Source: a virus. From it: DNA of 36,647 nucleotides. Shown here piece after piece: positions 1,558 through 31,139 of this stretch. The notes under the pieces were generated by a model. The model was given only the letters and a program-made list of their open reading frames with translations. It made no database searches and was not told where the DNA came from. The stretch is from positions 1 to 36,647 of the IMG/VR virus record IMGVR_UViG_3300032223_000248, one strand, 5' to 3'. The translations under genes were made by a program, and so were the position numbers. Every line of letters begins with the position of its first letter. The first letter of the stretch is position 1.

Positions 1558-1559
1558 GG

Positions 1560-1970
1560 TCACTCTCCTTTAGACATATTCTTGATTAGTTTATTCAACT
1601 CAGCAGTGCTACCTACAAAGATAGCATTATTATTTGTAACTTTCTCAGATTTCGGTCCATCCAACTTTTGTTTCTGTTGGTGAACATCCATTAATTGCTG
1701 ATTCATATCAGCAAGTTGTTTCATTAAATTACCCACAACCTCAAAGGCACGTGGGTGTTCAGATTGTTTAGCAACTTCTAAAGCAGCAGTAAGTGCTTCT
1801 TGTCCCTTTAATAATAAGTCATGTAAATTATTTCTAGACTTATCATAGTCACTTTCAATTTTTTCTACTGGGTTTTGAATTATCTCACCAGTAGAATTAT
1901 CAATCACCTCAGAAGTTTTAGTTATAGCAGGAACATCAAAAACTTCTGACAAATTATCATCAATTTTCAT
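1560..1970 (-). CDS. 16: Terminase small subunit, gp16-like
   Basis: A 136-residue acidic, helical protein. The central part (about residues 45-105) contains a helix-rich NLHDLLLKGQEALTAALEVA segment and a coiled-coil-like glutamine-rich stretch. The C-terminus carries NNNAIFVGSTAELNKLIK, which I recognise from gp16 small terminase subunits of marine T4-like phages. gp16 forms a ring that helps the large subunit gp17 start headful packaging. gp17 is not in this window, so the two subunits are not adjacent here in the usual T4 way. The ATG at 1970 lies two bases after the holin stop, and the end touches the gp26-type gene, so the genes are probably translated together. Confidence 0.72.
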   Translation of the reverse strand: MKIDDNLSEVFDVPAITKTSEVIDNSTGEIIQNPVEKIESDYDKSRNNLHDLLLKGQEALTAALEVAKQSEHPRAFEVVGNLMKQLADMNQQLMDVHQQKQKLDGPKSEKVTNNNAIFVGSTAELNKLIKNMSKGE

Positions 1971-1971
1971 T

Positions 1972-2511
1972 TTAATCGTTTCTCGTATTTCTCATAGGTG
2001 GGTCGTTTGAATCTAATCCAGAGCCAAACCCACTACCGAATGTAGTAGTTGTATTTATTGGGGCTGGAGCAACTGGGGTTGGTCTTGGGATTGGCGCAGC
2101 TGCTGGTGCTGGAGCACTAAAGGTGCTTGAACCGAACCCTGTTGACGCAGGTAAGCCAAATGCTGGAGTGCTGCTAGATGTTGCATTATTACCTCCTGTT
2201 GGTGGAACATAAGTAGCACCACCATTGTTTGCGCCAGCTAATTTTTCTTGTGTACGACCCAAAGCAGCGATACCAAGAACAGCACCCATAGAGATGTGGA
2301 ATAAACCAGCACCTTGTAATGTTAAAGGTTGCCATTGGGTTTGAACGCTACCGTGTGCCAATGATTGAACTAAAGACCAAAGAATCGGTGCTAATACGAA
2401 ATCGAATGAACATACTGCCATATACATCCAACCCATCATTGGACGCCATTTACTATTCATCCAATCTTCTTTTTTCTTTTCGCTTTCGCTTAATACTTGT
2501 TCGTCTGCCAT
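1972..2511 (-). CDS. Holin, three-transmembrane family
   Basis: A 179-residue protein. Residues 20-85 match the 'holin of 3TMs' pattern: WRPMMGWMYMAVCSFDFVLA, a middle hydrophobic stretch (PILWSLVQSLA), then LTLQGAGLFHISMGAVLGIA followed by GRTQEK. The N-terminus is charged and has no signal peptide. The rest (about 90-179) is a low-complexity Pro/Ala/Ser/Thr/Gly tail, probably disordered and cytoplasmic. Holins pierce the inner membrane to release wall-degrading enzymes at the end of infection. AAAGGA precedes the start. It lies between tail tube and terminase genes, so it should be expressed with late structural genes. No soluble endolysin gene sits beside it. Confidence 0.8.
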   Translation of the reverse strand: MADEQVLSESEKKKEDWMNSKWRPMMGWMYMAVCSFDFVLAPILWSLVQSLAHGSVQTQWQPLTLQGAGLFHISMGAVLGIAALGRTQEKLAGANNGGATYVPPTGGNNATSSSTPAFGLPASTGFGSSTFSAPAPAAAPIPRPTPVAPAPINTTTTFGSGFGSGLDSNDPPMRNTRND

Positions 2512-2527
2512 TTTTTATCCTTTAAAA

Positions 2528-3220
2528 TTACCAGCCACTGCCATATCCAGAAACATCACCCATAGGATTGCCAACTGAATATTCTGTATATGATGTTACT
2601 GCTTCGTTTTTACGTTGGTTTGTGACTTGCCCACCAACAATTACTGGTTGATTATTTAATTCAGCAGCAGTCAATGATGGCTGTTGACTTAAATCCATTG
2701 TTGCGCTGTATGAAGTTGAAGTCCAATACTTATATTGCATTGTTACTTGCAATTTCATAACATCTTTTTGATCATATCCCATTTGAATTTGGCCGATAGA
2801 TTTTGGATAACACTCATATAAGTTAATATCATACTGAGCATTATTACTATAATCTTCAACTGTAATTATCATCTGAGAAATGTAATTTACATAATAATTA
2901 AAAGCACGTGTATATGGGTCTTGAATCAAACCCATCCATCTGTCAAAATAGTTTTTAACATTCATATTATTATCAACATAGAATGTTAAGTTAATATCTC
3001 CAAAAAGTTTCTCATAAGGAACTTCTCTTAATTCACCATAAGTTCTCAATTGAGCAGTGCTCATACTAACACCTGGAAGCTGAACATCTGCGCAGTACAT
3101 CATAATTTGACGTAGATTATCTGGATCGTTTACGACGTCGCCGAACTGGACTGTATATCTGTTCGAACGCATCATTCCTTGTGTTTTTACGGTAGCGATA
3201 AATTGGTCTATTGTAGACAT
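2528..3220 (-). CDS. 19: Tail tube protein gp19
   Basis: A 230-residue protein of the T4 gp19 tail tube family. Diagnostic features are the N-terminal TIDQF..TVKTQGMMRSNRYT, the CADVQLPGVSM segment, the LREVPYEKLFGDINLTFYVD strand pair, and the FDRWMGLIQDP helix, all typical of tube monomers. Hexamers of this protein stack to form the inner tube pushed through the cell envelope on sheath contraction. The start overlaps the preceding stop in a TAATG arrangement, suggesting coupled translation. The sheath protein gp18 is not in the window. The last roughly 60 residues are less conserved and may form the outer surface. Confidence 0.92.
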   Translation of the reverse strand: MSTIDQFIATVKTQGMMRSNRYTVQFGDVVNDPDNLRQIMMYCADVQLPGVSMSTAQLRTYGELREVPYEKLFGDINLTFYVDNNMNVKNYFDRWMGLIQDPYTRAFNYYVNYISQMIITVEDYSNNAQYDINLYECYPKSIGQIQMGYDQKDVMKLQVTMQYKYWTSTSYSATMDLSQQPSLTAAELNNQPVIVGGQVTNQRKNEAVTSYTEYSVGNPMGDVSGYGSGW

Positions 3221-3816
3221 TATAGCATTCTTTTCTTAGAGTCTGCCCAGACAGTTAGCTTATCTGCTCCAGTGAATTTTTCTACTGGAAGTAGCATTGC
3301 AGTTGCCCAGTCATAGGAATTAACCTGTTTAAATGGTGAACGAACATGATCCATTAGGTAATGTTTAACGCAAGGTTGAGCAGCTTTAAACTTGGAGATT
3401 CCATCAATTGTTGACCAAGAATATTTAAGTTTTGTAGCTTCATTCATTTTGTCGTTAGACTTAAACTGCATCAAACGATCCAACAACTGAATTCTAAGTT
3501 GATATGGAAGATAATGCATATTTAAACCAAGAAACCCACCCTGAACCTTTCTAAAGGGAAATACTAATGGGAATCGGTCATAGTATGGAAGTTCATGTTT
3601 TAGTTTTGGATCATAAAAATACATATAAAGTTTTCCAGGCATCACGTTCGTTTTTAACAAATCTGGATCTGCCTTTAGGACTTTATTTGGGGTAATTTGT
3701 TGCTTCGATAACAACAGAGCTTGTTGATCAAACCATGTGCGCGATTTCTTGGCAGCAGTAGCCAAGTCGTATCGGTTTTTATCAAATACGTTCTGAAGAG
3801 TTGTTTTAGTAGCCAT
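3220..3816 (-). CDS. gp2-like DNA end protector / head protein (tentative)
   Basis: A 198-residue basic protein with no transmembrane segment or signal peptide. The central part contains MPGKLYMYFYDPKLKHELPY, a FPLVFPF strand and GFLGLNMHYLPYQLRIQLLD. I recognise this arrangement from a conserved protein of marine T4-like phages found next to gp4. In T4 the neighbour of gene 4 is gene 2, whose product protects DNA ends and helps complete heads. The match to T4 gp2 itself is by position and general character, so treat the function as likely rather than shown. It sits four bases after gp4 and overlaps gp19 by one base. Confidence 0.5.
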   Translation of the reverse strand: MATKTTLQNVFDKNRYDLATAAKKSRTWFDQQALLLSKQQITPNKVLKADPDLLKTNVMPGKLYMYFYDPKLKHELPYYDRFPLVFPFRKVQGGFLGLNMHYLPYQLRIQLLDRLMQFKSNDKMNEATKLKYSWSTIDGISKFKAAQPCVKHYLMDHVRSPFKQVNSYDWATAMLLPVEKFTGADKLTVWADSKKRML

Positions 3817-3820
3817 TTAA

Positions 3821-4267
3821 TTATTTAGGTGTTTTTAGACCGAGTTCGTGCTCTGTGATGATTTTAAATTCCCAACCACGATCTTTACAGTATTCTCTGG
3901 CAGCTTTCCATTTAGCCTCATTTTTTATATAAGTCATTGATTCAGCCAAGTATCTTTGAGTTTGACGTCCTGGAAACTCAGGTGGTTTTGTCTGTTTAAA
4001 TGGTTTCACCTCAACCAAATACCTCTTTATTTGCCCATCATTAGACTTAATTTGTATATTAAAATCAACAAAATAACGATGTATTCTATCGTCTGTTGGA
4101 CATCTGTAAGGGATAATTGTTTCCTCAGAAACCCATTTTAATACAGATGGATTTTTGTCGCACCACGACGCAAACATAGTTTCCCAACTGGAACGCATAA
4201 TTATGTTTGTAGGATCCCCAGTATACTTCTCTGGGTTTAAGGGTTTATATAATCTTTTGTGAAACAT
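3821..4267 (-). CDS. 4: Head completion protein gp4
   Basis: A 148-residue T4 gp4 (gp50/65) family protein. Its hallmarks are the N-terminal NPEKYTGDPTNIIMRSSWE, then WCDKNPSVLKW.SEE..IPYRCP.D, RYFVDFNI and LVEVKPFKQT. The E...D..VEVK order resembles a PD-(D/E)XK nuclease core. T4 gp4 acts after packaging so that heads can accept tails. The C-terminus has AREYCKDRGWEFKIITEHEL, typical of the family. It is the first gene of the minus-strand late unit, 34 bases downstream of a CTAAATAAA element. Confidence 0.88.
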   Translation of the reverse strand: MFHKRLYKPLNPEKYTGDPTNIIMRSSWETMFASWCDKNPSVLKWVSEETIIPYRCPTDDRIHRYFVDFNIQIKSNDGQIKRYLVEVKPFKQTKPPEFPGRQTQRYLAESMTYIKNEAKWKAAREYCKDRGWEFKIITEHELGLKTPK

Positions 4268-4270
4268 TGC

Positions 4271-4278
4271 CTAAATAA
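4271..4278 (+). promoter_or_regulatory. Late promoter element for the gp48 operon
   Basis: CTAAATAA resembles the T4-type late promoter core (TATAAATA in T4; CTAAATA-like in marine relatives), recognised by the phage gp55-type sigma factor. It lies 38 bases before the gp48 start, leaving room for a start point near 4285 and a short leader. Its complement on the other strand (TTTAGG) also forms the ribosome site of gp4. Confidence 0.68.
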
Positions 4279-4300
4279 TCTATTAGAATAGTAATCTCCA

Positions 4301-4309
4301 TTTATTTAG
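4301..4309 (-). promoter_or_regulatory. Late promoter element for the gp4 operon
   Basis: CTAAATAAA on the minus strand lies 34 bases before the gp4 start. With the plus-strand element it forms a 9-base inverted repeat (CCTAAATAA / TTATTTAGG, 4270-4278 and 4302-4310). On the plus strand its complement contains TTTAGGA, the likely ribosome site of gp48. Confidence 0.68.
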
Positions 4310-4316
4310 GACAAGC

Positions 4317-5399
4317 ATGGCGAAAACACCAGACCTAACCCAAGCCACGTTGCGTGGACCAGCTGCACGATTTAATGCTGGTAAACAAAAATACGACGTT
4401 TCGAGCTACTCATACCCAGCAGACATTCAAAGTGAAGAATATGGTGGCAACTTCGTCGCATTCTATATCAACGTGTCTGAAGATTCAAAGATTCTTAATG
4501 ATAAATCTGTAAAAACGATTGGCGATATTCCAACCAGAGATCGTGGTGGTATGATCGCCAACCAAGAGGCTAGTGATGCTGGTAAAGTTACCACAGCTGC
4601 TGCAGCTGGCGGTGCCACTGCTATTTCTGCTTTATGGAAAGAAGGTAAACTACCAGACGACTGGTTTAAAAATTCAGTCAAAACAGTTGCTGGTGGAGCA
4701 GCAATCATGGCAGCTGCGAGCACTACGACTCGTGCTCAAAAGCGTTTAGCCACTGCTATTATGCTTTATATTCCAAATCAACTGTCAATTCGTTATGGAA
4801 CGCAATGGGGTGAAGAAGAAACTTTTGATTATCAAGCTACATTAAATGGTGCTCAAGCATTGGGTAAAGCAGTTACAGGTGCTGCAACTTTAAACTTTGG
4901 ACAAGTGGCTGATAGTGGTAGACAGGGAACTTCAATCGCAGCAGCAATTGCATTTCGTGGAGATAATAAAAATGCTGCAGCTTTATCAGCAGCTACAGGT
5001 TTAGCAGCTAACCCGAAGAAAGAGCAGGTATTTAAGGGTGTTGATTTTAGAACATTCTCAATGGATTATCAGTTCTTTCCACGTAACGAAACTGAAGCAC
5101 AAAATGTTTTAAATATTATTAAGATGTTTAAACTTCACATGCATCCAGAATTTAAAGATGCATCAAACTTCCTTTATATTTACCCATCTGAATTTGATGT
5201 TTATTATTATCAGGGTGGTAAAGAGAACTTAAATATTCATCGTCATACTTCTTGCGTTCTGACTGATATGACTGTTAATTATACACCAAACGGACAATTT
5301 AATACATTCGCGAATGGTATGCCTACGCAAATTTCAATTACGTTAAACTTCCGTGAATTGGCTCAACTTACAAAAGAAAAAATCGGGGATGGTCTATAA
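4317..5399 (+). CDS. 48: Baseplate tail tube cap gp48
   Basis: A 360-residue T4 gp48-type protein. The N-terminal region has the marine gp48 pattern of a short YSYPADIQ segment then FVAFYINV. A middle Ala-rich helical stretch (about residues 85-145) includes the weakly hydrophobic TVAGGAAIMAAAST. The C-terminal half has RYGTQWGEEE, FRTFSMDYQFFPRNETEAQ and a HMHPEF...YPSEFDVYYY region, which resemble tube-like domains. gp48 caps the hub and starts tube polymerisation with gp54. No separate gp54 is seen, so this protein may do both jobs. The stop overlaps gp53 in TAATG. Confidence 0.8.
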   Translation: MAKTPDLTQATLRGPAARFNAGKQKYDVSSYSYPADIQSEEYGGNFVAFYINVSEDSKILNDKSVKTIGDIPTRDRGGMIANQEASDAGKVTTAAAAGGATAISALWKEGKLPDDWFKNSVKTVAGGAAIMAAASTTTRAQKRLATAIMLYIPNQLSIRYGTQWGEEETFDYQATLNGAQALGKAVTGAATLNFGQVADSGRQGTSIAAAIAFRGDNKNAAALSAATGLAANPKKEQVFKGVDFRTFSMDYQFFPRNETEAQNVLNIIKMFKLHMHPEFKDASNFLYIYPSEFDVYYYQGGKENLNIHRHTSCVLTDMTVNYTPNGQFNTFANGMPTQISITLNFRELAQLTKEKIGDGL

Positions 5400-5893: not shown

Positions 5894-7182
5894 TGGCAAA
5901 AGACAAACTTAATTATGCTGGCGATGTAAACCTTGATGACGTAACAATTATATCATCTTCTGGGTTTTCTCAAAACGTAACTAATCAAGTAATAGGTGTT
6001 CAAATCTTTGAAGATTTGTTATCGCCTTTCATCACAGGTACTCTTCTTATTCGAGAATCTATAGATTTGGCAAATTTATTTCCGTTCGTTGGTCAAGAAT
6101 TATTAAAACTAAAAATTAGCACTCCAGGATTAAAAGACGGTAACATTGATGGTCGTTTTTATGTTTATAAAATGAGCGACCGTGTTATGCTTGGTGATAA
6201 ACAAGTAGGTTATCAATTACACTTCACAAGCGTTGATGCTATTGCGGATTTAAATAATCCGATTAGTAAGGGTTTTAATGGATTAGTTTCAGATATAGCC
6301 AAGACCATTTTAACTGATGCGAAATATGGGTTAAGTACGAGTGCTAAATGTTACATTGAAGAAACTAAAAATAAACACAAATATGTTTCCAATTATTGGT
6401 CACCAGTTAAAAACTTAATTTATTTGTGCGAGTTTGCAGTAAATGAAAAAGAATCGCCTACATATGTGTTTTTTGAAAACAGAGCAGGTTATAATTTCTG
6501 TTCTTTAGACTCGTTATATAATCAGGCTAAATTATTACAGACGTTCTCGTTTGATAACTATACTCGCGATTCGAAACCACAGGGTCAAGATGCCAAAAAT
6601 CCAGAAGAAGATTATAAACGAATCTTAGAACTACATATCCCAGAAGGTATTGATTATATCGATAGATTACAGAGTGGTATGTATGGATCTAAACTTTGGT
6701 CATTTGATATGTCAACAGGTGAAGTAGAGATTAATGAATTTGATATGATGAAGAAGTGGTCTGATAGAAACCATTTAAATAAATTTGCGCCAGCAAGATC
6801 TTCAGCTATTGGTAAATTTGAAACAACGATTTTAAATAGACCGAAAGCGTTCGGAACATTCCAAGATTATGATGATGTTTCAAATACAAAAATTATTCAA
6901 GAACGCATCTCCTTAATGAAACAGGCAGAGTCAATTAAGATTGAACTAACTGTTCCAGGAAGATGCGATTATACTGTTGGTCGAATCGTTGAAGTTAATT
7001 TAAATAAAGTTGCTCCAGTTAAAAAGACTGACCCAGAAGATAAAATTAAAGATAAAATGTTCTCTGGTAAATATATGGTCGCTGCGATTAACCATTTTAT
7101 TACTCGAGATAAACATGAATGTAAATTAGAGTTAATTAAAGACTCTATGATATTTGATTTAGAAAAAGGGACTACGAAATAA
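5893..7182 (+). CDS. 27: Baseplate hub gp27-like
   Basis: A 429-residue protein with the layout of T4 gp27 hub proteins and other phage hub proteins: an N-terminal beta-barrel with VIGVQIFEDLLSPFITGTLL and QELLKLKISTPG, a YQLHFTS strand, then NLIYLCEFAVNEKESPTYVF and FENRAGY, which is typical of hub-domain 'YVFFE.R.G' segments. The C-terminal part contains VPGRCDYTVGRIVEV and a SGKYMVAAINH strand, also conserved in hub proteins. It lies immediately before gp5, the natural partner that plugs into the gp27 trimer. The start overlaps gp53 and the stop overlaps gp5 (TAATG). Confidence 0.8.
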   Translation: MAKDKLNYAGDVNLDDVTIISSSGFSQNVTNQVIGVQIFEDLLSPFITGTLLIRESIDLANLFPFVGQELLKLKISTPGLKDGNIDGRFYVYKMSDRVMLGDKQVGYQLHFTSVDAIADLNNPISKGFNGLVSDIAKTILTDAKYGLSTSAKCYIEETKNKHKYVSNYWSPVKNLIYLCEFAVNEKESPTYVFFENRAGYNFCSLDSLYNQAKLLQTFSFDNYTRDSKPQGQDAKNPEEDYKRILELHIPEGIDYIDRLQSGMYGSKLWSFDMSTGEVEINEFDMMKKWSDRNHLNKFAPARSSAIGKFETTILNRPKAFGTFQDYDDVSNTKIIQERISLMKQAESIKIELTVPGRCDYTVGRIVEVNLNKVAPVKKTDPEDKIKDKMFSGKYMVAAINHFITRDKHECKLELIKDSMIFDLEKGTTK

Positions 7183-10100
7183 TGGCAATGGAATTATATT
7201 CAGGTGTCGTTGAAGATCGTGCTGATCCATTACATCTTGGTCGTTGCCGAGTTCGTATTGTAGGTTTACACACTGACGATAAAGTAGAGTTGCCCACGGA
7301 AGATCTTCCTTGGGCAGCACCCCTACAACCAATTACATCAGCAGGTGTTTCTGGTATTGGTTCATCACCTGTTGGTCCAGTTGAAGGAACATGGGTAGCA
7401 GTCGTATTCCGAGATGAATATCAACAAGTTCCAATTATGCTTGGAACATTCAGTGCGGTTCCTCAATCACAAGCTGCTAAACAAGCTGCAGCTGATTCTG
7501 CTGGCACAGTTATTGCTACCGATGGTGGTGTATTAACTAATGGATCTGGAGATCCAGTAACAACATCTGACGGAACTCCGATTGAAGCTGGATCTAAAGA
7601 GGGTATGAATAATCCTCCCAAGGATGCTGAACCATCACCTAAAGAATCACCTAAAAATAATATTACAACTCCTGGTGCTATTAATAGTAATCTTTTGGGT
7701 AAACCTGTTCCGACAGATCCACCTCCAGGATTAGCAGCTAATCAAGTAGCGAAAGCAAGACAGAATATTGGTTTGTTATTATCAGCAATGGATCGTATCG
7801 GAATTACTGGTAAATATGCTCGTGCTTCTATCCTCGCGATTTGCGGTGGTGAATCTAGATGGCAGCCTATTGCTGAGGGATATGTATATTCAGACGCAGC
7901 TTATTTAAATAAAATTTTTAAAGGTGTTTTCCAAGGCGATTTGAATCGAGCCAAACAATATTGTAACTGGCAAGGAACACGTGAAGATTTTTTTAGAGAA
8001 ATTTATAGTCCGAAATATTCAAATGGTCGTGGTGCTGGAAACATTCAACCAGACGATGGAGCATTATTCTATGGTCGTGGATATAACCAATTAACTGGAC
8101 GTACATTATATCAATCCATTCAAACTGGTTTGAAAAAAGATTATGGCATTACAGTTGATATTGTCAACAATCAAAATTCATTATTAACAGACCCACAAGT
8201 ATGTGCGATCTGCTGTATATATTTCTATATTAGAAAAATACCAAACTGGAAAACATTACAAGATGATCCTTCGTTTATTGAAACAGCATTAACTAGAACT
8301 GGTACTGACGCACATCAAGATAATTATAAAACTAAACGTGGTTATTATGCGTATTTCCTTGGATCTAAATTACCAGCTGCAGATCCATCAAATAAACCAC
8401 GTGCCGATACTGTTCCGTCTTATACAAAAGAAGATGTTAAAGAAGAAACTCCAGCACAGAAAACTGCAGCATTAGAAGATCGCTCTTCTGCTAAAACTAA
8501 AGGTTTCCAAGACCCACAGGGTAAATATCCACTTCGTTCGCAAATGAACGAATCATCAACAAATAGATTGGCTCGTGGTGAAGTTACGGGAACTCCTCTA
8601 GAATTTAAAGACGTATCTCGTAAAAGAAATCTTCCTATGGCTGGTGGTGGAACATTTGAACAGCCACTTGCAGGATTTGGTGGTGTCTATCCATATGCCA
8701 AAGTTACAGAAACTGAATCTGGTCATATGTTTATTATGGATGATACACCTACTCACGAGAATATCAGTTTATATCATCGTGCTGGGTCATTCATTGATAT
8801 TGATGCAAACGGAACAATGGTTAAGCGTATCGTTGGCGATGGTTATGAAATTATTGACAGAAATGGTTTGATTTACATTGGTGGTGATTGTAACATTAGC
8901 GTAGGTCGTGGCGTAAATCTTAAAGTTATGGCTGGCGCAGATATTGACATTCACGGTGAAACTAATGTTAATATTATGAACAACGCAAACATTAATGTTG
9001 CTGGTAAATTAAATCTTGGCGTTGGTGATGATATTAACATCTATGGTGCTGGTAATCTTACTATGCAGATTGATGGCGAAATTAAAGTTGCTTCTGGTGA
9101 AGGAACTTCGCTTAAATCTGGAGATTTTATTCATGCTCAAGCTGCTAAAGGTATTGATTTTAAAGCTGGTAAAGAATTTGCTGTTCAAACAGGATCAGAC
9201 GTTTCATTAAAATCAGGTGCCAATACTAACATTCAATCAGCTGGTGATTATAACGCATTGACAAGTGGTGGTAGTTATACTGAAGCAGGTGGTGATGTAA
9301 CTCAGAAAGCTGGTGGAAAAATTGCCAGTGATGGTTCTTCACAAGCTATTCAATCTGGAGCATCTTCTCCTGCAGGTGAAGCAGGTAGTGTTGCAGATAT
9401 TGATGATATTAAAGTTGAAATCGATCCAGGCGAAGTTGATTCAAATGATGGATACAGTTCTGCGATGCCGTTATTGGCAACACCAGTTCGTCCATCTCCA
9501 CCTGTAATGCAAGATGCAAAAATTGTTAATCAGAACAATAACAAATACTCAGATTTCGTTAATAACCCAAATAAATTCTATAACCCCTCAGCTTCTGCAG
9601 GTGGTGTTAAAGGTAACTACGCTGGGACACCGAAAGACGATAATAATGGTCAATCTTTAATTTCTGGTCAAAGTGCATCAGAATTTACTGATTGGTTCCA
9701 GAAGTGTTTAACTCAAACAGCTGAGAATGGATATTGGAGAGAAATGGGTCAAAATGGTAAACCAAGTAACCCAAATATTATCCGTATCTGGGAAGATCTT
9801 GGTTATCCGAAGAATGCGTATTGGTTAACTGACCAAACTCCATGGTGCATGGGATATGTTAATTACACATTGAAACAATGTGGTTACCGTTATGTTCAAA
9901 CTGCTTCTGCTTGGGCAATTCGCGATGCTTATACTAAATGGGCAGCCACCCCAATTACAGATTTCTCTCAAGCACAGGCTGGCGATATTGCTCTCTGGAA
10001 ATATGGCCACGTAAACTTTGTATATGCTAATAACAATGGACGTTTATCTTTTATTGGTGGTAACCAGACCCCAACTGCTAAAACAAACAATCCAAATGAT

Positions 10101-24138: not shown

Positions 24139-25317
24139 ATGGCGACACTCGTTTTAAGACAATCTAAGGGTTCTCCCCTTACAAACAATGAAGTTGATGC
24201 TAACTTCACCAATCTAAACGCAGATATTCAAACCAGAGTATTGATCACAGACTTTAATGCGAACAATATTCTTACATATCTAAAAACTGTTGACGGATCT
24301 GGTTCTGGTTTAGACGCTGATACTGTTGACGGATATAATGCCGTTGCTGCTATGCCAGCTGGACCTGACTATAGTTCGCTTGTAGCTCGCGATGCAGCAG
24401 GTAACTCAGTATTTAATAGTATCACTTCTACTGGAACAATTAATGGTGTTTCAGCTACCTTTAGTGGTGCTCTGAATGTTGGATCCATCTCAATTTCTGG
24501 TGGTTCTATTCCTGTTGCCGTTGGTGGTACTGGCGCAACTAATGCCTCAAATGCCCGAGCTAACCTTGGGTTAACTATCGGAACTAACGTCCAGGCATGG
24601 AATACCAAACTAGACGCTCTGACTACAGCAACATATGCAGCTGACACAATCCCTTATTTTACTGGTGCGACAACAACCAGCGCAACATCATTAACTGCTT
24701 ATGCCAGAACTTTGATTGCGGCAAGTTCAGATTCTGCTGCTCGTACTGTTCTTGGTGTTCGTGTTGGTACTGACGTACAACCATTTAGTGCTGAATTGTC
24801 AGCGGAAGCTAGTTTGGCAACTAACGGTATTACTGTTAGAAATGGATCAAACTCTAGAGTAACACGAGCAATCACTGGTGTTACTGGTGAAATTGAAGTA
24901 TCCAACGGCGATGGTGTTTCTGGCAACCCAGCGTTGTCAATTGGTTCCAATATCCCACGTCTAGCAAATAATAATACTTTTGCTGGTGGTTCAAATACCT
25001 TCTCGGGAACTGTTTACGCAGCTAGTTTCCAAGTTTCTTCTGATGCAAGATTAAAAGAGAACGTGGAAACGCTAAATAATGCTGTAGAGACTGTTTCGAA
25101 ACTCCGTGGTGTGTCATATACAAAGAATGGAGTTCCTGAAATTGGTGTAATCGCCCAAGAAATTGAAACAGTATTACCTAAAGTAGTTGGGGAAGACCCT
25201 AACGGATATAAAACTGTTGCATATGGCAACATTGTTGGTTTATTGATCGAAGCTATCAAAGAACAACAAGAAACTATTAAAGAATTAACTACTCGTTTAG
25301 AGAAATTGGAGAACTAA
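24139..25317 (+). CDS. Tail fibre with C-terminal S74 intramolecular chaperone
   Basis: A 392-residue fibre. The N-terminus (ATLVLRQSKGSPLTNNEVDA, then NFTNLNADI) is the common attachment segment of marine phage fibres. The middle has VDGYNAVAAMPAG, then repeated short beta units including GGTGATNASNARANLGLT. Residues from about 296 form a Peptidase_S74 domain: SDARLKENVETL holds the Ser-Lys cleavage site, GVIAQEIETVLPKVV follows, and IVGLLIEAIKEQQETIKEL forms the final helix. Such domains help the fibre trimerise, then cut themselves off before the SDARLK serine. AAGGGA precedes the start. The next gene begins one base after the stop, suggesting that the cysteine-rich protein is made with this fibre. 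Confidence 0.85.
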   Translation: MATLVLRQSKGSPLTNNEVDANFTNLNADIQTRVLITDFNANNILTYLKTVDGSGSGLDADTVDGYNAVAAMPAGPDYSSLVARDAAGNSVFNSITSTGTINGVSATFSGALNVGSISISGGSIPVAVGGTGATNASNARANLGLTIGTNVQAWNTKLDALTTATYAADTIPYFTGATTTSATSLTAYARTLIAASSDSAARTVLGVRVGTDVQPFSAELSAEASLATNGITVRNGSNSRVTRAITGVTGEIEVSNGDGVSGNPALSIGSNIPRLANNNTFAGGSNTFSGTVYAASFQVSSDARLKENVETLNNAVETVSKLRGVSYTKNGVPEIGVIAQEIETVLPKVVGEDPNGYKTVAYGNIVGLLIEAIKEQQETIKELTTRLEKLEN

Positions 25318-25318
25318 T

Positions 25319-25687
25319 ATGACTGTAGGAGCAACTGGTTTTAGAAACTCAGGTGGTACCGACCTTAACGGTATTTTCTGGGGATATAACGGAGACACAG
25401 GTAACCGTGGCGTAAACGACAGTAACGGTAACTGCGGTTGGAACTGCGCATGTAATGCGTGTAACTCTGCGTGTAACTGTAACTGTGGTAACTGTGACGC
25501 TGCCGACATTTCATTAAACGTAATTGTTACTGATTGGCGTTTGAATATCTTCCGTAATACTGATCGTGCTGATGGTATCCGTCACGATTCGCAAGACAAC
25601 ACTATGGGCATGTTCCGTTATATTCGTGTAAATTGCAACTGTAACTGTAATTGCAACTGTAACTGTAACTGTAATTGCAACTGCTAA
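25319..25687 (+). CDS. Asn-Cys repeat protein, possible modified peptide or fibre-tip protein
   Basis: A 122-residue protein of no family I recognise. Residues 1-35 are glycine/asparagine-rich (TGFRNSGGTDLNGIFWGYNG). Residues 36-59 hold eight cysteines, mostly preceded by Asn or Ala (Cys39, 43, 45, 48, 52, 54, 56, 59). Residues 60-104 are cysteine-free (LNVIVTDWRLNIFR). Residues 105-122 are nine uninterrupted Asn-Cys pairs that end the protein. In total 17 of 122 residues are Cys. GGAG is well placed, the start follows the S74 fibre stop by one base, and no signal peptide is seen. Metal or Fe-S binding, disulphide ladders, or enzymatic thioether formation are all possible. A radical SAM gene lies about 1 kb downstream. 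Confidence 0.8.
   Translation: MTVGATGFRNSGGTDLNGIFWGYNGDTGNRGVNDSNGNCGWNCACNACNSACNCNCGNCDAADISLNVIVTDWRLNIFRNTDRADGIRHDSQDNTMGMFRYIRVNCNCNCNCNCNCNCNCNC
25626..25684 (+). repeat. Hexamer tandem repeat encoding Asn-Cys
   Basis: Nine tandem copies of AAYTGY occupy 25631-25684. The order of AATTGC and AACTGT units shows a longer unit (AATTGC AACTGT AACTGT) that was copied, then extended by one AACTGT. Synonymous codons vary, so the Asn-Cys pattern looks kept at the protein level. A less regular version lies in the middle of the gene (25436-25497). Confidence 0.85.
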
Positions 25688-25701: not shown

Positions 25702-26661
25702 ATGGCTACATTAGCACAAAGACCAATCGCAGGATTTGATGAAACTGGAGAGAAATCCGTTATCAATGGAAATTACCGTTTTACATACGGATTCGTAGAT
25801 AATAAAATTACAGTTAAAGTTGATAAGATTGTTAGACCAGATCTAACTAGAGAACATAATGACGAAGAAATAACATTTGAAGAAGTAGCTTCACGTGAGT
25901 TTACATCTTCAGAGTTCGCATTAAGAACTGATCACATGGCTTGGTATGTTGACTTTGATGTTGTTAACAATACAATCCTCGACCCATTAGACGTAATCGC
26001 CTATGGCGCAGCGAATGCATACAAAGAACCAAACTATAATGTTTTTGGTTTACATCGCGATTTAATGGCTCGTTATGATTCATATACATTACTACCGATG
26101 TTTTATGTTAAGACGTTTGATTACGGAACAGTTAATTTTGAAAATTCTTTAATTGTATTTTATACAGTTAAACATACTGAACCATCTCCTGGTGATACAA
26201 TTTTAAACAATGAAGTTATTACTTTAGAAGATGAGAACGCAACTCGTTTCTGGATTCGCGATAATCTATTATCCGCTGTAACATTCTCTATTAAAGATTC
26301 AGAAGGAAACTCTGTTGGAAATGTTTCTCCAAAATTAGAATCTACTCCAACTAAAAGACGTTATGGTGTTACTGACGAACCTGCTATGACTCCAAAACTG
26401 AATGCGTATGTAGCAACTTTACCAGCTGGTAAATATAATGTTACTTGCTCTTTCGCCAAGGAATTATACCCAACTGCTGTTAATTCATACGATATCGAGA
26501 TGATTAATGGTATTAGTGCGAAAAACAATATTACGATTGGTGCTGGACAGTCTGATGTTAACATCGACTTAACTGGTTTGAGTACGGGTGATGTATCTAG
26601 AATGAAATTTAATTTAGGCGCATTTACTGCTTACGCTCAATTATTGATTACCATTTCTTAA
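25702..26661 (+). CDS. Unknown 319-residue probable virion protein
   Basis: I do not recognise this protein. It is 319 residues with no signal peptide and no transmembrane segment, mostly beta-strand with short linkers. The N-terminal 150 residues include VINGNYRFTYGFVDNKITVK and a MAWYVDFDVVNN strand. The middle has MFYVKTFDYGTVNFENSLIV. The C-terminal 120 residues look like an Ig-like domain (VTFSIKDSEGNSVGNVSP; LPAGKYNVTCSF) followed by a short strand region. AAAAGGA precedes the start. It follows the Asn-Cys gene by 14 bases and ends before a terminator, so it probably belongs to the same fibre transcription unit. A fibre tip, capping protein or partner of the Asn-Cys protein is possible. 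Confidence 0.6.
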   Translation: MATLAQRPIAGFDETGEKSVINGNYRFTYGFVDNKITVKVDKIVRPDLTREHNDEEITFEEVASREFTSSEFALRTDHMAWYVDFDVVNNTILDPLDVIAYGAANAYKEPNYNVFGLHRDLMARYDSYTLLPMFYVKTFDYGTVNFENSLIVFYTVKHTEPSPGDTILNNEVITLEDENATRFWIRDNLLSAVTFSIKDSEGNSVGNVSPKLESTPTKRRYGVTDEPAMTPKLNAYVATLPAGKYNVTCSFAKELYPTAVNSYDIEMINGISAKNNITIGAGQSDVNIDLTGLSTGDVSRMKFNLGAFTAYAQLLITIS

Positions 26662-26678: not shown

Positions 26679-26685
26679 CTAAATA
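26679..26685 (+). promoter_or_regulatory. Late promoter CTAAATA of the radical SAM operon
   Basis: CTAAATA lies 41 bases before the radical SAM start. Its AAATA forms part of the left arm of the terminator that follows, so transcripts begun here start inside the hairpin and escape it, while read-through from upstream would be stopped. Confidence 0.6.
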
Positions 26686-26713
26686 CCCTATGAAAGTAGG
26701 GTATTTTTATTTT
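26681..26713 (+). terminator. Rho-independent terminator after the Asn-Cys/319-residue unit
   Basis: A 10-base-pair perfect stem (AAATACCCTA, 26681-26690, with TAGGGTATTT, 26697-26706), a six-base loop and a T-rich tail. It ends the fibre/Asn-Cys transcription unit. Confidence 0.82.
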
Positions 26714-26725
26714 ATAAGGAATAAT

Positions 26726-28195
26726 ATGAGTAAATTTAAGTTGATCTTCCAAGGATCAAATGATGTGAAAGAAACTTTGATATATGACCCAATGACTTCA
26801 GAGATGGTATGGGAAAGTACTGGTAATAAACCTACCTTGACACATATCTCTCATGGGTTAGAGTATAAGATTGATGCTAAAGTTTGGACGCCAGCAAAGG
26901 TAACAAACCCACATAATCCAGAATTACACGGAAAAAAATCCGATAAACCAACTACGCTTAAAATCACAATGGGTCTTAAGTGTAATTATGCTTGCTCTTA
27001 CTGTAACCAAGCACACCAACCCCATGATCCAGTTGGCGGTCCAGAAGATGCTGAAGATTTGGTTCAAAAAATCAAAAACAATTTTAAGTTTTCCACCTAT
27101 GATACTTTCCGTTTAGAATTTTGGGGTGGTGAACCAATGGTATATTGGAAGACATTAAAACCTTTAGCTGAAAAGATTCGTACAGTTTATCCAAATGCTC
27201 AGTTTATGATGGTCACTAATGGTTCATTGTTGACCCGAGAAAAGATTGAATGGTTTAATCGTATGGGGTTTGCGATCGGTATGTCTCATGATGGACCACT
27301 CCATGCACAAAACCGTGGACCAGATCCACTAGACGAACCACCAGCAAAAGACGCTGTTGTTTATGCTCTTAAAACAATGGGTCAAAATAGATTTACATTT
27401 AACTGCGTATTAACACGTGAGAATGTTTCTATTGCTGCAGTTCGTGATTTTATTCTAGATAAACTAAATCGTAAAGATTATGGATATGATTATGTTGAAA
27501 TTGCTCAGCATGATCTTCAAGTAACAACAGAAGAACTAATGTTACCATATGATGACTCAGGTATGACTCACTCAATCCAAACCCCAGATGAAAAGAAAGA
27601 GATCCTTCATTCATTGTTTTGGGAAACAATTGAAAGTAGAAACCAATTTAGTTGGACAGTTAACCAGAAGATTCAAGGATTCTTCGAGTCTATCGTTTAT
27701 CAACGACCAGCTGAAGTTCTTGGTCAGAAGTGCGGTATGGATAAAGAAGATACCATTGCCATCGATATGAAAGGTAATGTGACTACATGTCAAAATACTT
27801 CATCTTTGACTAAACATAACCTTGGTAATATCGAGCAGTTGGATGATGTTAGATTAACGAACTCATATCACTGGTCAACTCGTAAAGAATGTCCTTCTTG
27901 CCCAGTAGTTCAGTTATGTCAAGGTGCTTGTTTATTCTTGGAAGACCAATATTGGACTCAAGCGTGCGAAAACCTTTTCTGGTATAATTTGGCTATCCTT
28001 GCTGCTAGTATGTTCATTATGACAGATGGATTGGTTTTAGTTGAAATCCAAGGTGAGAAGATTAGATTTGATGGTGAAACTTCACTTCCTGTTATCGATA
28101 TTGACTATGTTAAGTCAGGTGGTAAACAGAAATCATGGAAGGTTCGTAAGCCAGTTGGCATTCCAGTTGTATCGGTTCCAGCTACACCACAGTAA
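26726..28195 (+). CDS. Radical SAM enzyme with SPASM domain
   Basis: A 489-residue enzyme. I take the ATG at 26726, preceded by AAGGA; the in-frame ATG at 26690 lies inside the terminator stem. Cys86, Cys90 and Cys93 form the CxxxCxxC motif for the SAM-binding 4Fe-4S cluster (KCNYACSYCNQ), and WGGEP lies at 133-137. The C-terminal SPASM region is complete: Cys336-x13-Gly-x4-Cys355, then Cys389, 392, 398 and 402 (CxxCx5Cx3C), and Cys414, enough for two auxiliary clusters. Such enzymes mature peptides (thioether or carbon-carbon links) or proteins (formylglycine). The likely substrate is unproven; the cysteine-rich protein upstream is the obvious candidate. The 107-residue gene follows with a one-base overlap. 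Confidence 0.93.
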   Translation: MSKFKLIFQGSNDVKETLIYDPMTSEMVWESTGNKPTLTHISHGLEYKIDAKVWTPAKVTNPHNPELHGKKSDKPTTLKITMGLKCNYACSYCNQAHQPHDPVGGPEDAEDLVQKIKNNFKFSTYDTFRLEFWGGEPMVYWKTLKPLAEKIRTVYPNAQFMMVTNGSLLTREKIEWFNRMGFAIGMSHDGPLHAQNRGPDPLDEPPAKDAVVYALKTMGQNRFTFNCVLTRENVSIAAVRDFILDKLNRKDYGYDYVEIAQHDLQVTTEELMLPYDDSGMTHSIQTPDEKKEILHSLFWETIESRNQFSWTVNQKIQGFFESIVYQRPAEVLGQKCGMDKEDTIAIDMKGNVTTCQNTSSLTKHNLGNIEQLDDVRLTNSYHWSTRKECPSCPVVQLCQGACLFLEDQYWTQACENLFWYNLAILAASMFIMTDGLVLVEIQGEKIRFDGETSLPVIDIDYVKSGGKQKSWKVRKPVGIPVVSVPATPQ

Positions 28196-28518
28196 TGGCT
28201 TTTCTTGATTGTAATATTTGGGAAATTAACCAGTTCCCAAAATATGGAGTACATTTGGATAGGTATACCCTAGCCAATGTATTTCAATACAGATCTGATG
28301 TTTCTGAGTATCAAAGTAACAACTTTTATATCCAGATTCCAGAGTTTGAGATAAATGGAACAGATGAACAAAAATCATTTATCAATAAATATAAGGAGAA
28401 ATTGATACAATATCGTATCCCATTCCTTATAAATCGAATAAATAGAGGTATGGAGAGTTGGGTAATAGACCTGTCAATGTCTGATTACCTCTTGCATAAA
28501 ATAACAAAGGAGACGTAA
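28195..28518 (+). CDS. Unknown 107-residue protein in the radical SAM operon
   Basis: I do not recognise this protein. It is aromatic-rich and soluble, with no signal peptide or transmembrane segment. Visible segments are FLDCNIWEINQFPKYGVHLD, a QSNNFYIQIPEFEI strand pair, a lysine-rich helix (DEQKSFINKYKEKLIQY) and a C-terminal WVIDLSMSDYLLHKI. It overlaps the radical SAM stop (TAATG) and ends directly before the TRAP-type gene. In many peptide-maturation operons a small protein of this size delivers the leader peptide to the enzyme, but I see no winged-helix pattern to claim that here. Its position makes it a partner of the enzyme or the binding protein. Confidence 0.6.
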   Translation: MAFLDCNIWEINQFPKYGVHLDRYTLANVFQYRSDVSEYQSNNFYIQIPEFEINGTDEQKSFINKYKEKLIQYRIPFLINRINRGMESWVIDLSMSDYLLHKITKET

Positions 28519-29466
28519 ATGGAACAAAAACACGTAAAATGGGTTATCGCTCACGAACCTATTGGTTTGTTCTTGAAAGTTGCTGATTCATTCGCTAAGG
28601 AAGTTAATGAACAGACTGGTGGAAAGTTTAACATTGAAGTTCTTTCATTGTCAGACTATGCTACAAAATACAATGATGGTAAGAAAATTACCAAGAACGA
28701 CCTAATGGAGTTGGTAAATACTGGCGCAATCGAAATGAGCCATATCTACACTACTTGGTTGGCCGACTACAATAAAGATCTACACGCATTGGATCTACCA
28801 TTCCTATTCCGCGACCATGACCACGCTGACGCTGTTCTAGAAGGTCCAATCGGTAGCGATTTGTTAGCTGGTGTTTCTAAACAATCAAACATCAAAGCCA
28901 TGTCTTTCACTTACTCTGGTGGCTATCGTGTTGTTCCAGCTAATTTTAAAGCTGACACTGTAGAAGCATGGCAAGGTAAAACTGTTCGTACAAGTCGCAG
29001 CCCAGTTGCTGTTGAGACTTTCAAATTGCTTGGTGCTGAGCCTAAAGAGAATATTGCTTTGGAAGAAATGAACGCAGCTGCTAAAGCTGGTGAAATTGAA
29101 GCTGGCGAATCTACTTACGTTCGTGTATTCCCACTACAACAGAACGAAGCATTTAGCGTTGTTAATGACACTGCTCACAGTTTGTTTTTGACTTCTATTA
29201 TCGTTAACCAAGATTTCTTCAATCAGTTTGATGCTGAAACTCGTCAGATTATGTCTACTGCTGCATTTAATGCTGCTCGTAAAGAGCGTCGTGAATCAGT
29301 TGCTGACATTCCAAATATCTTGGCTGAGTGTGAAGAAAAAGGTGTTATGGTTGTTACTATGTCTGAAAAAGAAAAAGCTAAGTTTAAAGAAATAACTTCT
29401 CAGGTTTATGAGAAGTTTGCTGACTATTTTACTCCAGGTCTAGTAAATGGCATTCAGTTACATTAA
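28519..29466 (+). CDS. TRAP-type (DctP family) solute-binding protein without signal peptide
   Basis: A 315-residue DctP-type binding protein. Landmarks are VADSFAKEVNEQTGGKFNIE (20-40), the LDLPFLFRDHDHADAVLEGP segment (91-110), AMSFTYSGGYRVV, and WQGKTVRTSRSPVAVETFKL with Arg157 at the place of the conserved carboxylate-binding arginine. The following LLGAEPKEN is also typical. Bacterial relatives start with a Sec signal peptide; this one begins with MEQKHVKWVIAH, directly at the first strand of the mature fold, with a strong AAAGGAG site. No TRAP membrane subunits are nearby. It is therefore cytoplasmic or virion-borne rather than a normal periplasmic protein. A ligand-binding or host-attachment role in the particle is conceivable. 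A host origin is likely. Confidence 0.88.
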   Translation: MEQKHVKWVIAHEPIGLFLKVADSFAKEVNEQTGGKFNIEVLSLSDYATKYNDGKKITKNDLMELVNTGAIEMSHIYTTWLADYNKDLHALDLPFLFRDHDHADAVLEGPIGSDLLAGVSKQSNIKAMSFTYSGGYRVVPANFKADTVEAWQGKTVRTSRSPVAVETFKLLGAEPKENIALEEMNAAAKAGEIEAGESTYVRVFPLQQNEAFSVVNDTAHSLFLTSIIVNQDFFNQFDAETRQIMSTAAFNAARKERRESVADIPNILAECEEKGVMVVTMSEKEKAKFKEITSQVYEKFADYFTPGLVNGIQLH

Positions 29467-29484: not shown

Positions 29485-29512
29485 TGGGGAGCTTCGGCTC
29501 CCCATTTTTATT
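29485..29512 (+). terminator. Rho-independent terminator with TTCG loop
   Basis: An 8-base-pair stem (TGGGGAGC, 29485-29492, with GCTCCCCA, 29497-29504) closed by a stable C(TTCG)G tetraloop and followed by TTTTTATTT. It ends the radical SAM/TRAP unit. Confidence 0.9.
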
Positions 29513-29522
29513 TGAGGATATT

Positions 29523-30545
29523 ATGCAAGTTCTATATTACAATGTGTTCAATGTGCCAGAGATGATTAATAGTGATAATGTAACACCTTACCTATCACCA
29601 AACTTTTCATCAGATTTATTTTCTAATTATAGAAAATTTGGAATGGATAAACAGAATTTTGTATATGATAGAACTGGAACTATTCCTCATTATGTCAACA
29701 TAAAACCAAACCTAGCTCCAATCCCCAACACACAAGGTTTTAATAAATCGTTTGAGCAAGTTGTTGAAGAACGAGCCAAAGAACTTCTTAGTTTTAATAA
29801 ACAAGTTAATGTTGTATGGAGTGGTGGAATTGATAGTACGCTGGCTTTGTTTGCTTTAATTAAATACGCAAATGACCCAAGCCAGATAACTGTTTACGGA
29901 ACATATACATCAATTCTAGAATCAGGTAATCTATTTGATAATAATATTCTACCTAAGGGTGTGCGTCATAGAATTAGGGTTGCTTCAAAGAAAGAGTTTG
30001 AAAGTCCAAACGAAATATATGTAACTGGATTTATGGGTAATCAGTTATTTGGTCCGACAGATGACTTCTCTAAAAACTCAAAGGTAACATTATTTCATCA
30101 CCAATTTAATTATGAAGATCCTTTGGCTCCATACGAGAAGTGTATTTCTGGAGAAAAATTAGAATTTCTGCAGCCGATGATTGACGCTTCTCCAAAGAAA
30201 ATAGAAACAGTTAGAGATTTACGTTGGTGGTTTATTTTTAATTTAGACTGGTATACAGCTAAATTTGATGCACTGGTTCATACTAAGAATAGAAACGATG
30301 TCTATCATTTCTTCGATACAGAGGATTTTCAAAGATATGTTCTTACTACTAAAGAACCATTTACGAAAGAGGTTGGTAACGCATTGACCCATCGTTGGGA
30401 AATGCGACAACTAATTGAAGATTACAGTGGTAATAAACATTACCCTTGGAATAAAACAAAAGGGGTTTCGAATCTTAGCAACTCGAACCCCTCTTGGATG
30501 TTTTTACTTGAAGACTACAGTTTAGTAGTTAGTAAACCCAACTAA
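29523..30545 (+). CDS. Asparagine-synthase-like PP-loop enzyme
   Basis: A 340-residue protein. I place the start at the ATG at 29523 (GAGGA upstream); the TTG further upstream falls in the terminator. Residues 94-110 read QVNVVWSGGIDSTLALF, with the SGGxDS PP-loop at 100-105 that binds ATP pyrophosphate. GFMGNQLFG at 169-177 resembles the GxGgDELFGGY motif of asparagine synthase, though the acidic pair is missing (NQ), so full activity is uncertain. The N-terminal glutaminase domain is absent, so ammonia or another amine would have to be the donor. Relatives of this fold make amides, including macrocycle or lactam bonds. It follows the TRAP-type gene behind its own promoter/stem-loop cassette. 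Confidence 0.72.
   Translation: MQVLYYNVFNVPEMINSDNVTPYLSPNFSSDLFSNYRKFGMDKQNFVYDRTGTIPHYVNIKPNLAPIPNTQGFNKSFEQVVEERAKELLSFNKQVNVVWSGGIDSTLALFALIKYANDPSQITVYGTYTSILESGNLFDNNILPKGVRHRIRVASKKEFESPNEIYVTGFMGNQLFGPTDDFSKNSKVTLFHHQFNYEDPLAPYEKCISGEKLEFLQPMIDASPKKIETVRDLRWWFIFNLDWYTAKFDALVHTKNRNDVYHFFDTEDFQRYVLTTKEPFTKEVGNALTHRWEMRQLIEDYSGNKHYPWNKTKGVSNLSNSNPSWMFLLEDYSLVVSKPN
30453..30492 (-). terminator. Terminator of the minus-strand gene, embedded in the PP-loop gene
   Basis: On the minus strand, AGGGGTTCGA pairs with TCGAAACCCCT with one bulged A, and a TTTTGTTTT tail follows. It lies about 30 bases after the stop of the convergent gene and inside the 3' coding part of the PP-loop gene. Confidence 0.72.
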
Positions 30546-31139
30546 AACATTAAAGAAAACTTGTGCTTGGTCAGACAAGTTAGTTTCAGTATAACGCTGA
30601 ACATATCCAGGAGTTACAAAACACTCTCCGAGTTGCCCTCGAATACCAAAACTTGTTCCAACTAAATTCTGATAAACTTTCTGACGAATGGTTTGAACGC
30701 CACCACGTGTATCTGCGAAATATGTAAACTGCGGATATTGCCCAGTGTTAAGTACGAAAGTTAATACCAATGGAACATGCTCATATGCATGTAATGGAAT
30801 GTGTTCTTTAGCTTGTTGGAACAAAATGTTTGAACCAATAATTTGCGGTAGGTAATTGACGTTTTCACCTTCCTGCAATCCTTCTGTCGATTTTGGTTGG
30901 AACTCTTCCAACTGTTGGCAAATATCATATACAACTTCTTTAAATCTATCGATAGTTGGATGATCTAAAGACATTAGTTCAACATCTTCAGTTTGAGACT
31001 GGTTCAAATCAATCAACGATTGCTGTAATTCTTCAGTCAAACCATAAGAAAAACAACGAAGTTCTGTTGGGAATAGGATTTTTGAGAAAGTCTGTTTAAC
31101 TTCAGTTGATACTTCTTGTGGTGCTTGGTTGTTTTCCAT
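30522..31139 (-). CDS. Unknown protein with a possible 2OG-oxygenase/cupin-like fold
   Basis: A 205-residue protein with no confident family match. Residues 100-145 (IIGSNILFQQAKEHIPLHAY, HVPLVLTFVLNTG, FTYFADTRGG) and 172-202 (ECFVTPGYVQRYTETNLSDQ, QVFFNVLVGF) have the spacing of the two conserved blocks in phage 2OG-Fe(II) oxygenases. However, the HxD pair and the distal His are not clear: His113, His117 and His121 are the only nearby histidines, and Arg182 stands where the distal His would be expected. It may be a non-catalytic relative. The N-terminus is charged and helical. It is the only minus-strand gene between the fibre clusters, converging on the PP-loop gene with a 24-base overlap. 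GGAG precedes the start. Confidence 0.55.
   Translation of the reverse strand: MENNQAPQEVSTEVKQTFSKILFPTELRCFSYGLTEELQQSLIDLNQSQTEDVELMSLDHPTIDRFKEVVYDICQQLEEFQPKSTEGLQEGENVNYLPQIIGSNILFQQAKEHIPLHAYEHVPLVLTFVLNTGQYPQFTYFADTRGGVQTIRQKVYQNLVGTSFGIRGQLGECFVTPGYVQRYTETNLSDQAQVFFNVLVGFTNY

Follow-up and report, generated by a model that had tools for sequence, protein, structure and literature searches.

A phage radical SAM/SPASM enzyme paired with tail proteins ending in Asn-Cys arrays: a probable fibre-tip maturase

Why does a tailed phage carry a complete radical SAM/SPASM enzyme among the genes for its virion, and on what would such an enzyme act? The question is raised by a 36.6-kb virus record, the whole of which was analysed and is referred to here as the window. 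The window is a T4-like myovirus with genes for the tail tube, the baseplate wedge and fibres, and its baseplate gp6-like protein shares 42% identity with that of Methylophilales phage Melnitz. The enzyme ORF is embedded among the genes for these virion parts, namely the tail tube, subunits of the baseplate wedge and an S74 tail fibre, in agreement with the phage structural region claimed for it in the original prediction, which was made from the sequence alone. The S74 fibre gene is located upstream of the gene for a small tip protein that ends in an Asn-Cys array (Table 1). Because terminator-like hairpins separate genes in the window, the second of them at positions 29485-29504 before the PP-loop gene, we treat these genes as one-strand neighbours and not as a proven single operon.

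Table 1. Features of the window around the enzyme gene, with the evidence for each
Feature	Position	Strand	Evidence
S74 tail fibre protein, C-terminal Peptidase_S74 intramolecular chaperone	24139..25317	+	PF13884 4.7e-14; PHROG tail-fibre/baseplate matches
Asn-Cys tip protein, 122 aa, 17 Cys, proposed enzyme substrate	25319..25687	+	homologous tip proteins or fibre C-termini beside the enzyme in divergent phages
Internal Cys-rich segment of tip protein, NCGWNCACNACNSACNCNCGNC	25430..25495	+	conserved within window group
C-terminal (Asn-Cys)9 array, putative modified core	25631..25684	+	ends exactly at stop codon; mixed synonymous codons
Partner protein, N-terminal domain and C-terminal Ig/PapD-like domain	25702..26661	+	relatives in 83 of ~130 loci
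Terminator-like hairpin between partner protein and enzyme genes	26681..26706	+	11-pair stem, T-rich tail; consensus match only
Radical SAM/SPASM enzyme (candidate maturase), 489 aa	26726..28195	+	Pfam, NCBIfam, conserved Cys, AF2 model, structure comparison
CxxxCxxC radical SAM cluster motif	26981..27004	+	invariant in homologues
SPASM region, seven invariant Cys	27731..27967	+	TIGR04085, homologue alignment
107-aa protein, conserved in close (myovirus) group	28195..28518	+	12 loci
DctP-type (TRAP) solute-binding protein	28519..29466	+	PF03480 8.5e-44; 10 loci
PP-loop ATPase-like protein, SGGIDS motif, asparagine-synthetase-like	29520..30545	+	relative also after the enzyme in L022
Distant relative of 2OG-Fe(II) oxygenases	30522..31139	-	hhalign probability 86, E 5e-6 against oxygenase family

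The enzyme ORF is intact and ends at position 28195. The longest possible ORF opens at 26690 (501 aa). The ATG at 26726 is favoured as the true start, being served by a ribosome-binding site (AAGGAATAATATG) and shared with the close homologues, while position 26690 falls within a terminator-like hairpin; all of this backs the start that had been proposed originally. With 26726 as the start, the cysteines of the SAM cluster are residues C86, C90 and C93 (motif CNYACSYC), and those of the SPASM region are C336-X13-G-X4-C355 ... C389-X2-C392-X5-C398-X3-C402-X11-C414, which follows the seven-cysteine SPASM pattern CX9-15GX4C - CX2CX5CX3C - C. All ten cluster cysteines were invariant in 14 homologues and also in 49 diverse homologues, confirming the earlier reading of three SAM-cluster and seven SPASM cysteines with canonical spacing. 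The enzyme scored 39.7 bits against Pfam Radical_SAM PF04055, over the curated cut-off of 29.5, and 36.5 bits against NCBIfam SPASM TIGR04085, for which the curated cut-off is 27, and it combines the CxxxCxxC motif with the TIM-barrel core of the radical SAM superfamily. The nearest PHROG was 1802 (6e-63, 214 bits, residues 71-429 of the 501-aa ORF), an existing phage family of "radical SAM domain-containing protein" that includes these enzymes, for example that of Achromobacter phage JWF; its annotation carries neither a function nor a partner. Among sequenced phage isolates, relatives were detected in 29 of 50,697 records, with full-length matches in just 3, while at least 576 related stretches were found in environmental phages of IMG/VR. 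The claim that such enzymes are rare in phages is thus true of the sequenced isolates but not of environmental phages.

Tail proteins ending in an array recur upstream of enzymes that are just 32-37% identical, on contigs of unrelated gene content. The upstream tail proteins of L021, L026 and L022 end in ...TNCNCGAFNCRTNCNCNCNCNCGK, ...YNCNCNCVCACNC and ...CTSACACACNCGG, respectively, a 404-aa fibre upstream in L027 ends in ...TNCNCNC, and an array-ending tail protein likewise lies upstream of the enzyme in L029 and L023. To count such cases, enzyme loci were dereplicated at ~90% identity, giving 107 loci with at least 3 kb of upstream sequence, and an array was defined as ([NADSGT]C) repeated at least three times in an ORF within 5 kb. 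An array ORF on the same strand was present upstream in 92 of the 107 loci and downstream in 2 (Fisher 3e-41); on the opposite strand, an upstream array ORF was present in 14 of 107. When the comparison was confined to loci flanked by 5 kb or more in each direction, the values were 45 of 52 upstream and 1 of 52 downstream. The reverse test set out from IMG/VR DNA that matched a nucleotide pattern encoding (Asn-Cys)4, with no reference to the enzyme. Among the matches listed, 103 loci contained (Asn-Cys)4 within an ORF; the enzyme was present in 72, the contig ended early in 26, and five were enzyme-free, defined as having at least 4 kb of room without an enzyme. Accordingly, the enzyme was found in 72 of the 77 informative loci among the matches listed, and at least two of the five enzyme-free loci look like chance frames. 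A few members of the enzyme family were without a recognised array nearby. The enzyme and an Asn-Cys-ending tail protein are paired in hundreds of environmental phages. Based on these counts, the pairing is very probably real, and the enzyme family is defined by what accompanies it, tail proteins with (Asx/Ala-Cys)n at their end.

Codon usage within the arrays indicated that they are held by selection at the protein level. Of 115 distinct array DNAs, just five are perfect hexanucleotide repeats, which rules out DNA-level repeat expansion as the origin of (Asn-Cys)n, and in most of them the two codons of Asn occur mixed, as do the two of Cys. Codon differences in the arrays of close relatives comprised 147 synonymous versus 38 nonsynonymous changes, the latter being exchanges among N, A and D while Cys remained fixed; it is this excess, together with the fixed Cys and the scarcity of perfect hexamers, that argues for protein-level selection. 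Across 186 tail proteins, the X position of the X-Cys arrays is occupied by Asn (70%), Ala (17%) and Asp (8%), and never by Pro, Lys, Glu or Ile. Gly accounts for 2 of 1173 at this position, in contrast to 12% across the rest of the same proteins. The tip protein of the window, when its array was left out, had no tblastn match in sequenced phage isolates.

The array is located at the C-terminus, or within 7 residues of it, in 132 of 172 distinct cases. In the fibre gp28 of Achromobacter phage JWF, an isolate in which the enzyme is gp30, the array NCNCDCNCNCS is followed at once by a Hint domain opening CFPAGT, with PF05203 over its cut-off. The same layout was recognised by sequence in L069, L084, L099, L142, L144, L145, L154 and L155; in the Pfam analysis of these loci L142 and L145 were weakly supported and L084 was unrecognised. 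In L289, a Peptidase_S74 chaperone comes directly after the array. Both the Hint and the S74 domain types are self-cleaving, so that the array would become the mature C-terminus if cleavage occurs here as well. Another conserved domain (...ICTELYSQGYMTKTVYELDGEFGKRL...) follows the (Asn-Cys)n array in fibre ORFs of L318 (2-937, minus strand) and L218 (44-943, minus strand), and it had no Pfam match in the L318 ORF that was scanned.

Array-free members of the family were identified beside a YcaO protein in Variovorax (L191 and L194), in Ramlibacter (L186 and L193) and in L187. PF02624 scored ~140 bits in the two YcaO neighbours that were scanned, and one of these two has a nitroreductase domain. 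A small ORF, which either lies between the YcaO and enzyme genes or shares sequence with the beginning of the enzyme ORF, encodes a precursor of ~65-75 aa with the core (T/S)-x-D-C-x...ISP-x-P, in which Asp precedes Cys in five of five. Judged by their layout, these loci are RiPP gene clusters, and the Asp-Cys of their precursors obeys the same Asx-Cys rule as the arrays of the phages, which provides an independent clue for a peptide maturase. In a quick tree the YcaO branch was single (support 99) and nested among phage-type enzymes, which suggests that its enzyme was recruited from phage to bacterium, with the root and long branches leaving the direction uncertain. A YcaO/radical SAM cluster with a DC...ISPxP precursor also seems to be an undescribed type of RiPP cluster. 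The near-exclusive two-way co-occurrence, the selection on the array and the YcaO-cluster branch speak together for the original proposal of a peptide maturase acting on the adjoining Asn-Cys protein, and we consider it highly likely that the array is the substrate of the enzyme.

To which class of maturase the enzyme belongs was examined with profiles, structure and phylogeny. Across ten bacterial genomes, the scores were 294-616 bits for family members, 175 and 87 for two fragments and no more than 71 for radical SAM proteins of other kinds. The commonest NCBIfam matches among 49 members were PapB (48), geopeptide (47) and QhpD (46), none of them near its cut-off. The enzyme itself scored far under the cut-off of every named maturase family in NCBIfam, including PapB NF047865 (70.8 bits vs 340), ScfB/CteB SCIFF TIGR03974 (43.9 vs 425), anSME TIGR03942 (67.8 vs 349) and QhpD TIGR03906 (56 vs 453), which places it outside each of them. 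The AF2 model of the enzyme (pLDDT 93.5) matched solved radical SAM enzymes, with CteB as the nearest (Z 24.0 over 351 residues), followed by ChlB (20.3), anSME (19.9), TigE (19.5), a viperin-like enzyme (15.9), SkfB (15.6), SuiB (15.3), EpeE (15.2) and PqqE (12.1). No RRE-like domain was detected in the enzyme or its neighbours by Pfam PqqD; the N-terminal domain of the model consists of three strands, and the helices of an RRE fold were not seen there, yet it aligns to the N-terminus of CteB.

The phylogenetic tree included QhpD, anSME, CteB, PqqE and NirJ as references; no anSME references were gathered from 60 genomes of one phylum, and these were taken from a separate search. Our analysis revealed that the focal family constitutes a long-stemmed clade of its own (support 100/100), and that NirJ and PqqE form a separate 100/99 clade. 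Placement among heme d1 or PQQ enzymes is thereby excluded, and the heme d1 placement that the original prediction had set against itself did not occur. The deep forks were weak and gave no single known maturase family as the sister group. CteB is the nearest structure and PapB the most frequent profile match, but the family forms its own clade and falls inside no known family.

The enzyme would work in the manner of the radical SAM/SPASM enzymes of ranthipeptides and sactipeptides, except that its substrate here would be a structural tail protein and not a secreted peptide. CteB of the SCIFF peptide thermocellin (PDB 5wgg/5why), the nearest of the solved structures, aligns over ~350 residues with its N-terminal part included, has a full SPASM domain and forms a thioether on a Cys-rich peptide; however, its identity to the enzyme is ~18-20%, and its substrate is a short secreted-type peptide instead of a phage tail protein. 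QhpD makes Cys-to-Asp/Glu thioethers within a protein subunit and so comes closest, in function, to a precedent in which the substrate is not an antibiotic, although it did not group with the enzyme in the tree. PapB, the most frequent NCBIfam match, performs Cys-to-Asx chemistry, tolerates adjacent residues and cross-links Cys-Xn-Asp with n = 0-6 (PMC9413430), its own substrate motif being Cys-X3-Asp in contrast to the alternating X-Cys found here. A ranthipeptide with a Cys-Asn S-Cbeta bond exists as well (PMC11002830), and these two precedents make a thioether a reasonable proposal. Given CteB as the nearest structure and PapB matches in nearly all members, the thioether keeps its place as the likeliest chemistry, as had been predicted, and we give it a slight preference as the product bond.

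Taken as a whole, we consider it fairly probable that the enzyme is a dedicated virion-protein maturase that installs Cys-to-Asx thioethers on the fibre tip. The scheme begins with translation of a tip protein or fibre whose C-terminus carries an (Asx/Ala-Cys)n array, as can be read in the sequence. The SAM cluster would then yield a 5'-deoxyadenosyl radical and two auxiliary clusters would activate Cys thiolates, a hydrogen would be taken from the beta- or alpha-carbon of an Asn, Asp or Ala next to or near a Cys, and thioethers would be closed along the array. Since Ala lacks the side-chain carbonyl that favours a beta-radical, not every X position need be linked. In some phages a 2OG-Fe(II) oxygenase from the neighbourhood may add a further change, and self-cleavage of the Hint or S74 domains found behind some arrays would leave the array as the mature C-terminus. 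The resulting tip, rigid, oxidation-proof and possibly metal-binding, would serve host attachment or fibre stability. Several findings weigh against this scheme: the scores far under every named maturase cut-off, the missing RRE-like domain, Ala at 17% of X positions, the few array-free family members and, in the window phage, both the lack of an intact 2OG oxygenase and the terminator-like hairpin that parts the substrate gene from the enzyme gene.

The near absence of Gly agrees with a reaction that requires the X residue to have a side-chain carbon or a stereocentre, and epimerisation therefore remains the main rival. The enzyme would in that case modify the array otherwise, by epimerising X from L to D or by another radical change, to give an alternating-chirality helix or a ligand. 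Strict two-residue alternation and the exclusion of Gly, which cannot be epimerised, both fit; the epimerase EpeE (Z 15.2) is a structural neighbour, and the 2OG oxygenases encoded close by show that modification may go beyond a single change. Nevertheless, CteB (Z 24.0) and anSME (Z 19.9) are clearly nearer than EpeE, and the full seven-cysteine SPASM and the all-Cys face of the partner suggest sulphur chemistry, and we regard a change other than the thioether as unlikely. The array could also be an unmodified metal- or cluster-binding tip, with the target of the enzyme elsewhere. Iron is held by HxH motifs along the fibre tips of the T4 type (PMC11705849), a role that alternating Cys could fill as well; tips of the T4 gp37 type share with the array the alternating metal-ligand residues, but with His for Cys and no modifying enzyme. 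Against an unmodified tip, array and enzyme are almost never apart and no other small partner is equally constant, which renders it improbable; metal binding as a function of a modified tip is possible and compatible with the thioether proposal.

anSME is among the nearest structures and profiles, and formylglycine formation by anSME-like Cys oxidation, be it at the tip or elsewhere among the virion proteins, was considered for this reason. Enzymes of this type (PDB 4k36-4k39) are likewise radical SAM/SPASM proteins that act post-translationally on a Cys of a full protein. In our analysis, however, the anSME score was far under its cut-off, anSME fell in a separate clade, and the window contained no sulfatase. 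Direct reading of the translation of 25319-25687 revealed no C-x-[A/P]-x-R, nor any other form of the anSME target motif C/S-x-[A/P]-x-R, just as the original prediction had noted for the CxPxR sulphatase motif; formylglycine formation, called unlikely from the start, is very improbable both on the tip protein and on other virion proteins. Other phage radical SAM genes, for example those of Campylobacter phages, sit among metabolic genes, and the enzyme could in principle be a small-molecule enzyme or host-metabolism cargo gene placed in the tail region by chance. Its constant coupling to tail proteins and its position apart from the NirJ/PqqE clade make this scarcely credible, and thioether maturation of the array remains the preferred reading.

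Other neighbours of the enzyme gene recur as well. The commonest companion is the ~300-aa partner protein (Table 1), which may be an accessory protein or an adhesin. Its AF2 model (pLDDT 83) has an Ig-like C-terminal domain (Z 7-9), which is a common arrangement, and for its N-terminal domain there was no convincing PDB match and the viral-library matches were all unnamed. The second commonest is a 2OG-Fe(II) oxygenase (52 of ~130 loci; PF13759 over cut-off), and further oxygenase families rank next. The window group has no intact 2OG oxygenase; in the distant relative, encoded on the opposite strand between fibre genes, the distal metal His is apparently replaced. A relative of the PP-loop protein is also present downstream of the enzyme in the divergent contig L022, and no significant solved homologue was found for either the 2OG-like or the PP-loop neighbour. 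PP-loop ATPase-like proteins in phage tail regions might be another protein-modifying enzyme. Pseudomonas phage Cygsa01 (L358) carries two PP-loop copies annotated as MnmA beside baseplate genes at 5998-8147. The DctP/TRAP-type protein, which has no evident signal peptide, sits among tail genes and is kept in ~10 related phages.

Further radical SAM genes were observed near Cys-rich tail proteins. In L029 a second one (1672-2694) lies directly 5' of the family member and 3' of an irregular Cys-rich tail protein. In the region 1195-5257 of Erwinia phage vB_EamM_ChrisDB (L355, KX397366), two tandem radical SAM genes of a different family, gp183 and gp184, are found near ORFs with C-terminal Gly/Ser-Cys-rich tails (...GCSGCSGCSGSCSGSCSGKCSGCSG...), and the locus looks like a second, independent phage system of radical SAM enzyme and Cys tail.

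Radical SAM/SPASM peptide maturases are already known; the open-access literature yielded no case of such an enzyme acting on a structural phage protein that carries an alternating Asx-Cys tail, and searches there on the pairing of enzyme and Asn-Cys tail, on the motif NCNCNC, on RiPP-like radical SAM enzymes of phages and on phage JWF returned nothing on point. The phage probably cross-links its own tail tip chemically, for which no virus-particle precedent was found in the same literature. More tentatively, and a little short of what we would call probable, many unrelated tailed phages may rigidify the C-terminal tip of their receptor-binding fibres by poly-(Asx-Cys) thioethers, maybe also between chains of the trimer, with the tip exposed by self-cleavage of Hint or S74 domains and sometimes 2OG-decorated, and bacteria may have recruited one branch of the enzyme into YcaO clusters. 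If the proposal is true, it leads to the question as to how oxygen-sensitive chemistry operates during infection of bacteria in aerobic water, and peptide cross-linking would gain a ready enzyme-substrate pair whose repeated motif is very simple. The hardening of phage tails is commonly ascribed to folding, to metal ions and to the intertwining of trimers. The fibre tip would be the first radical-SAM-matured part of a virion, with RiPP-type chemistry at work on structural proteins, and its radical processing would bring a further layer into the assembly of virions.
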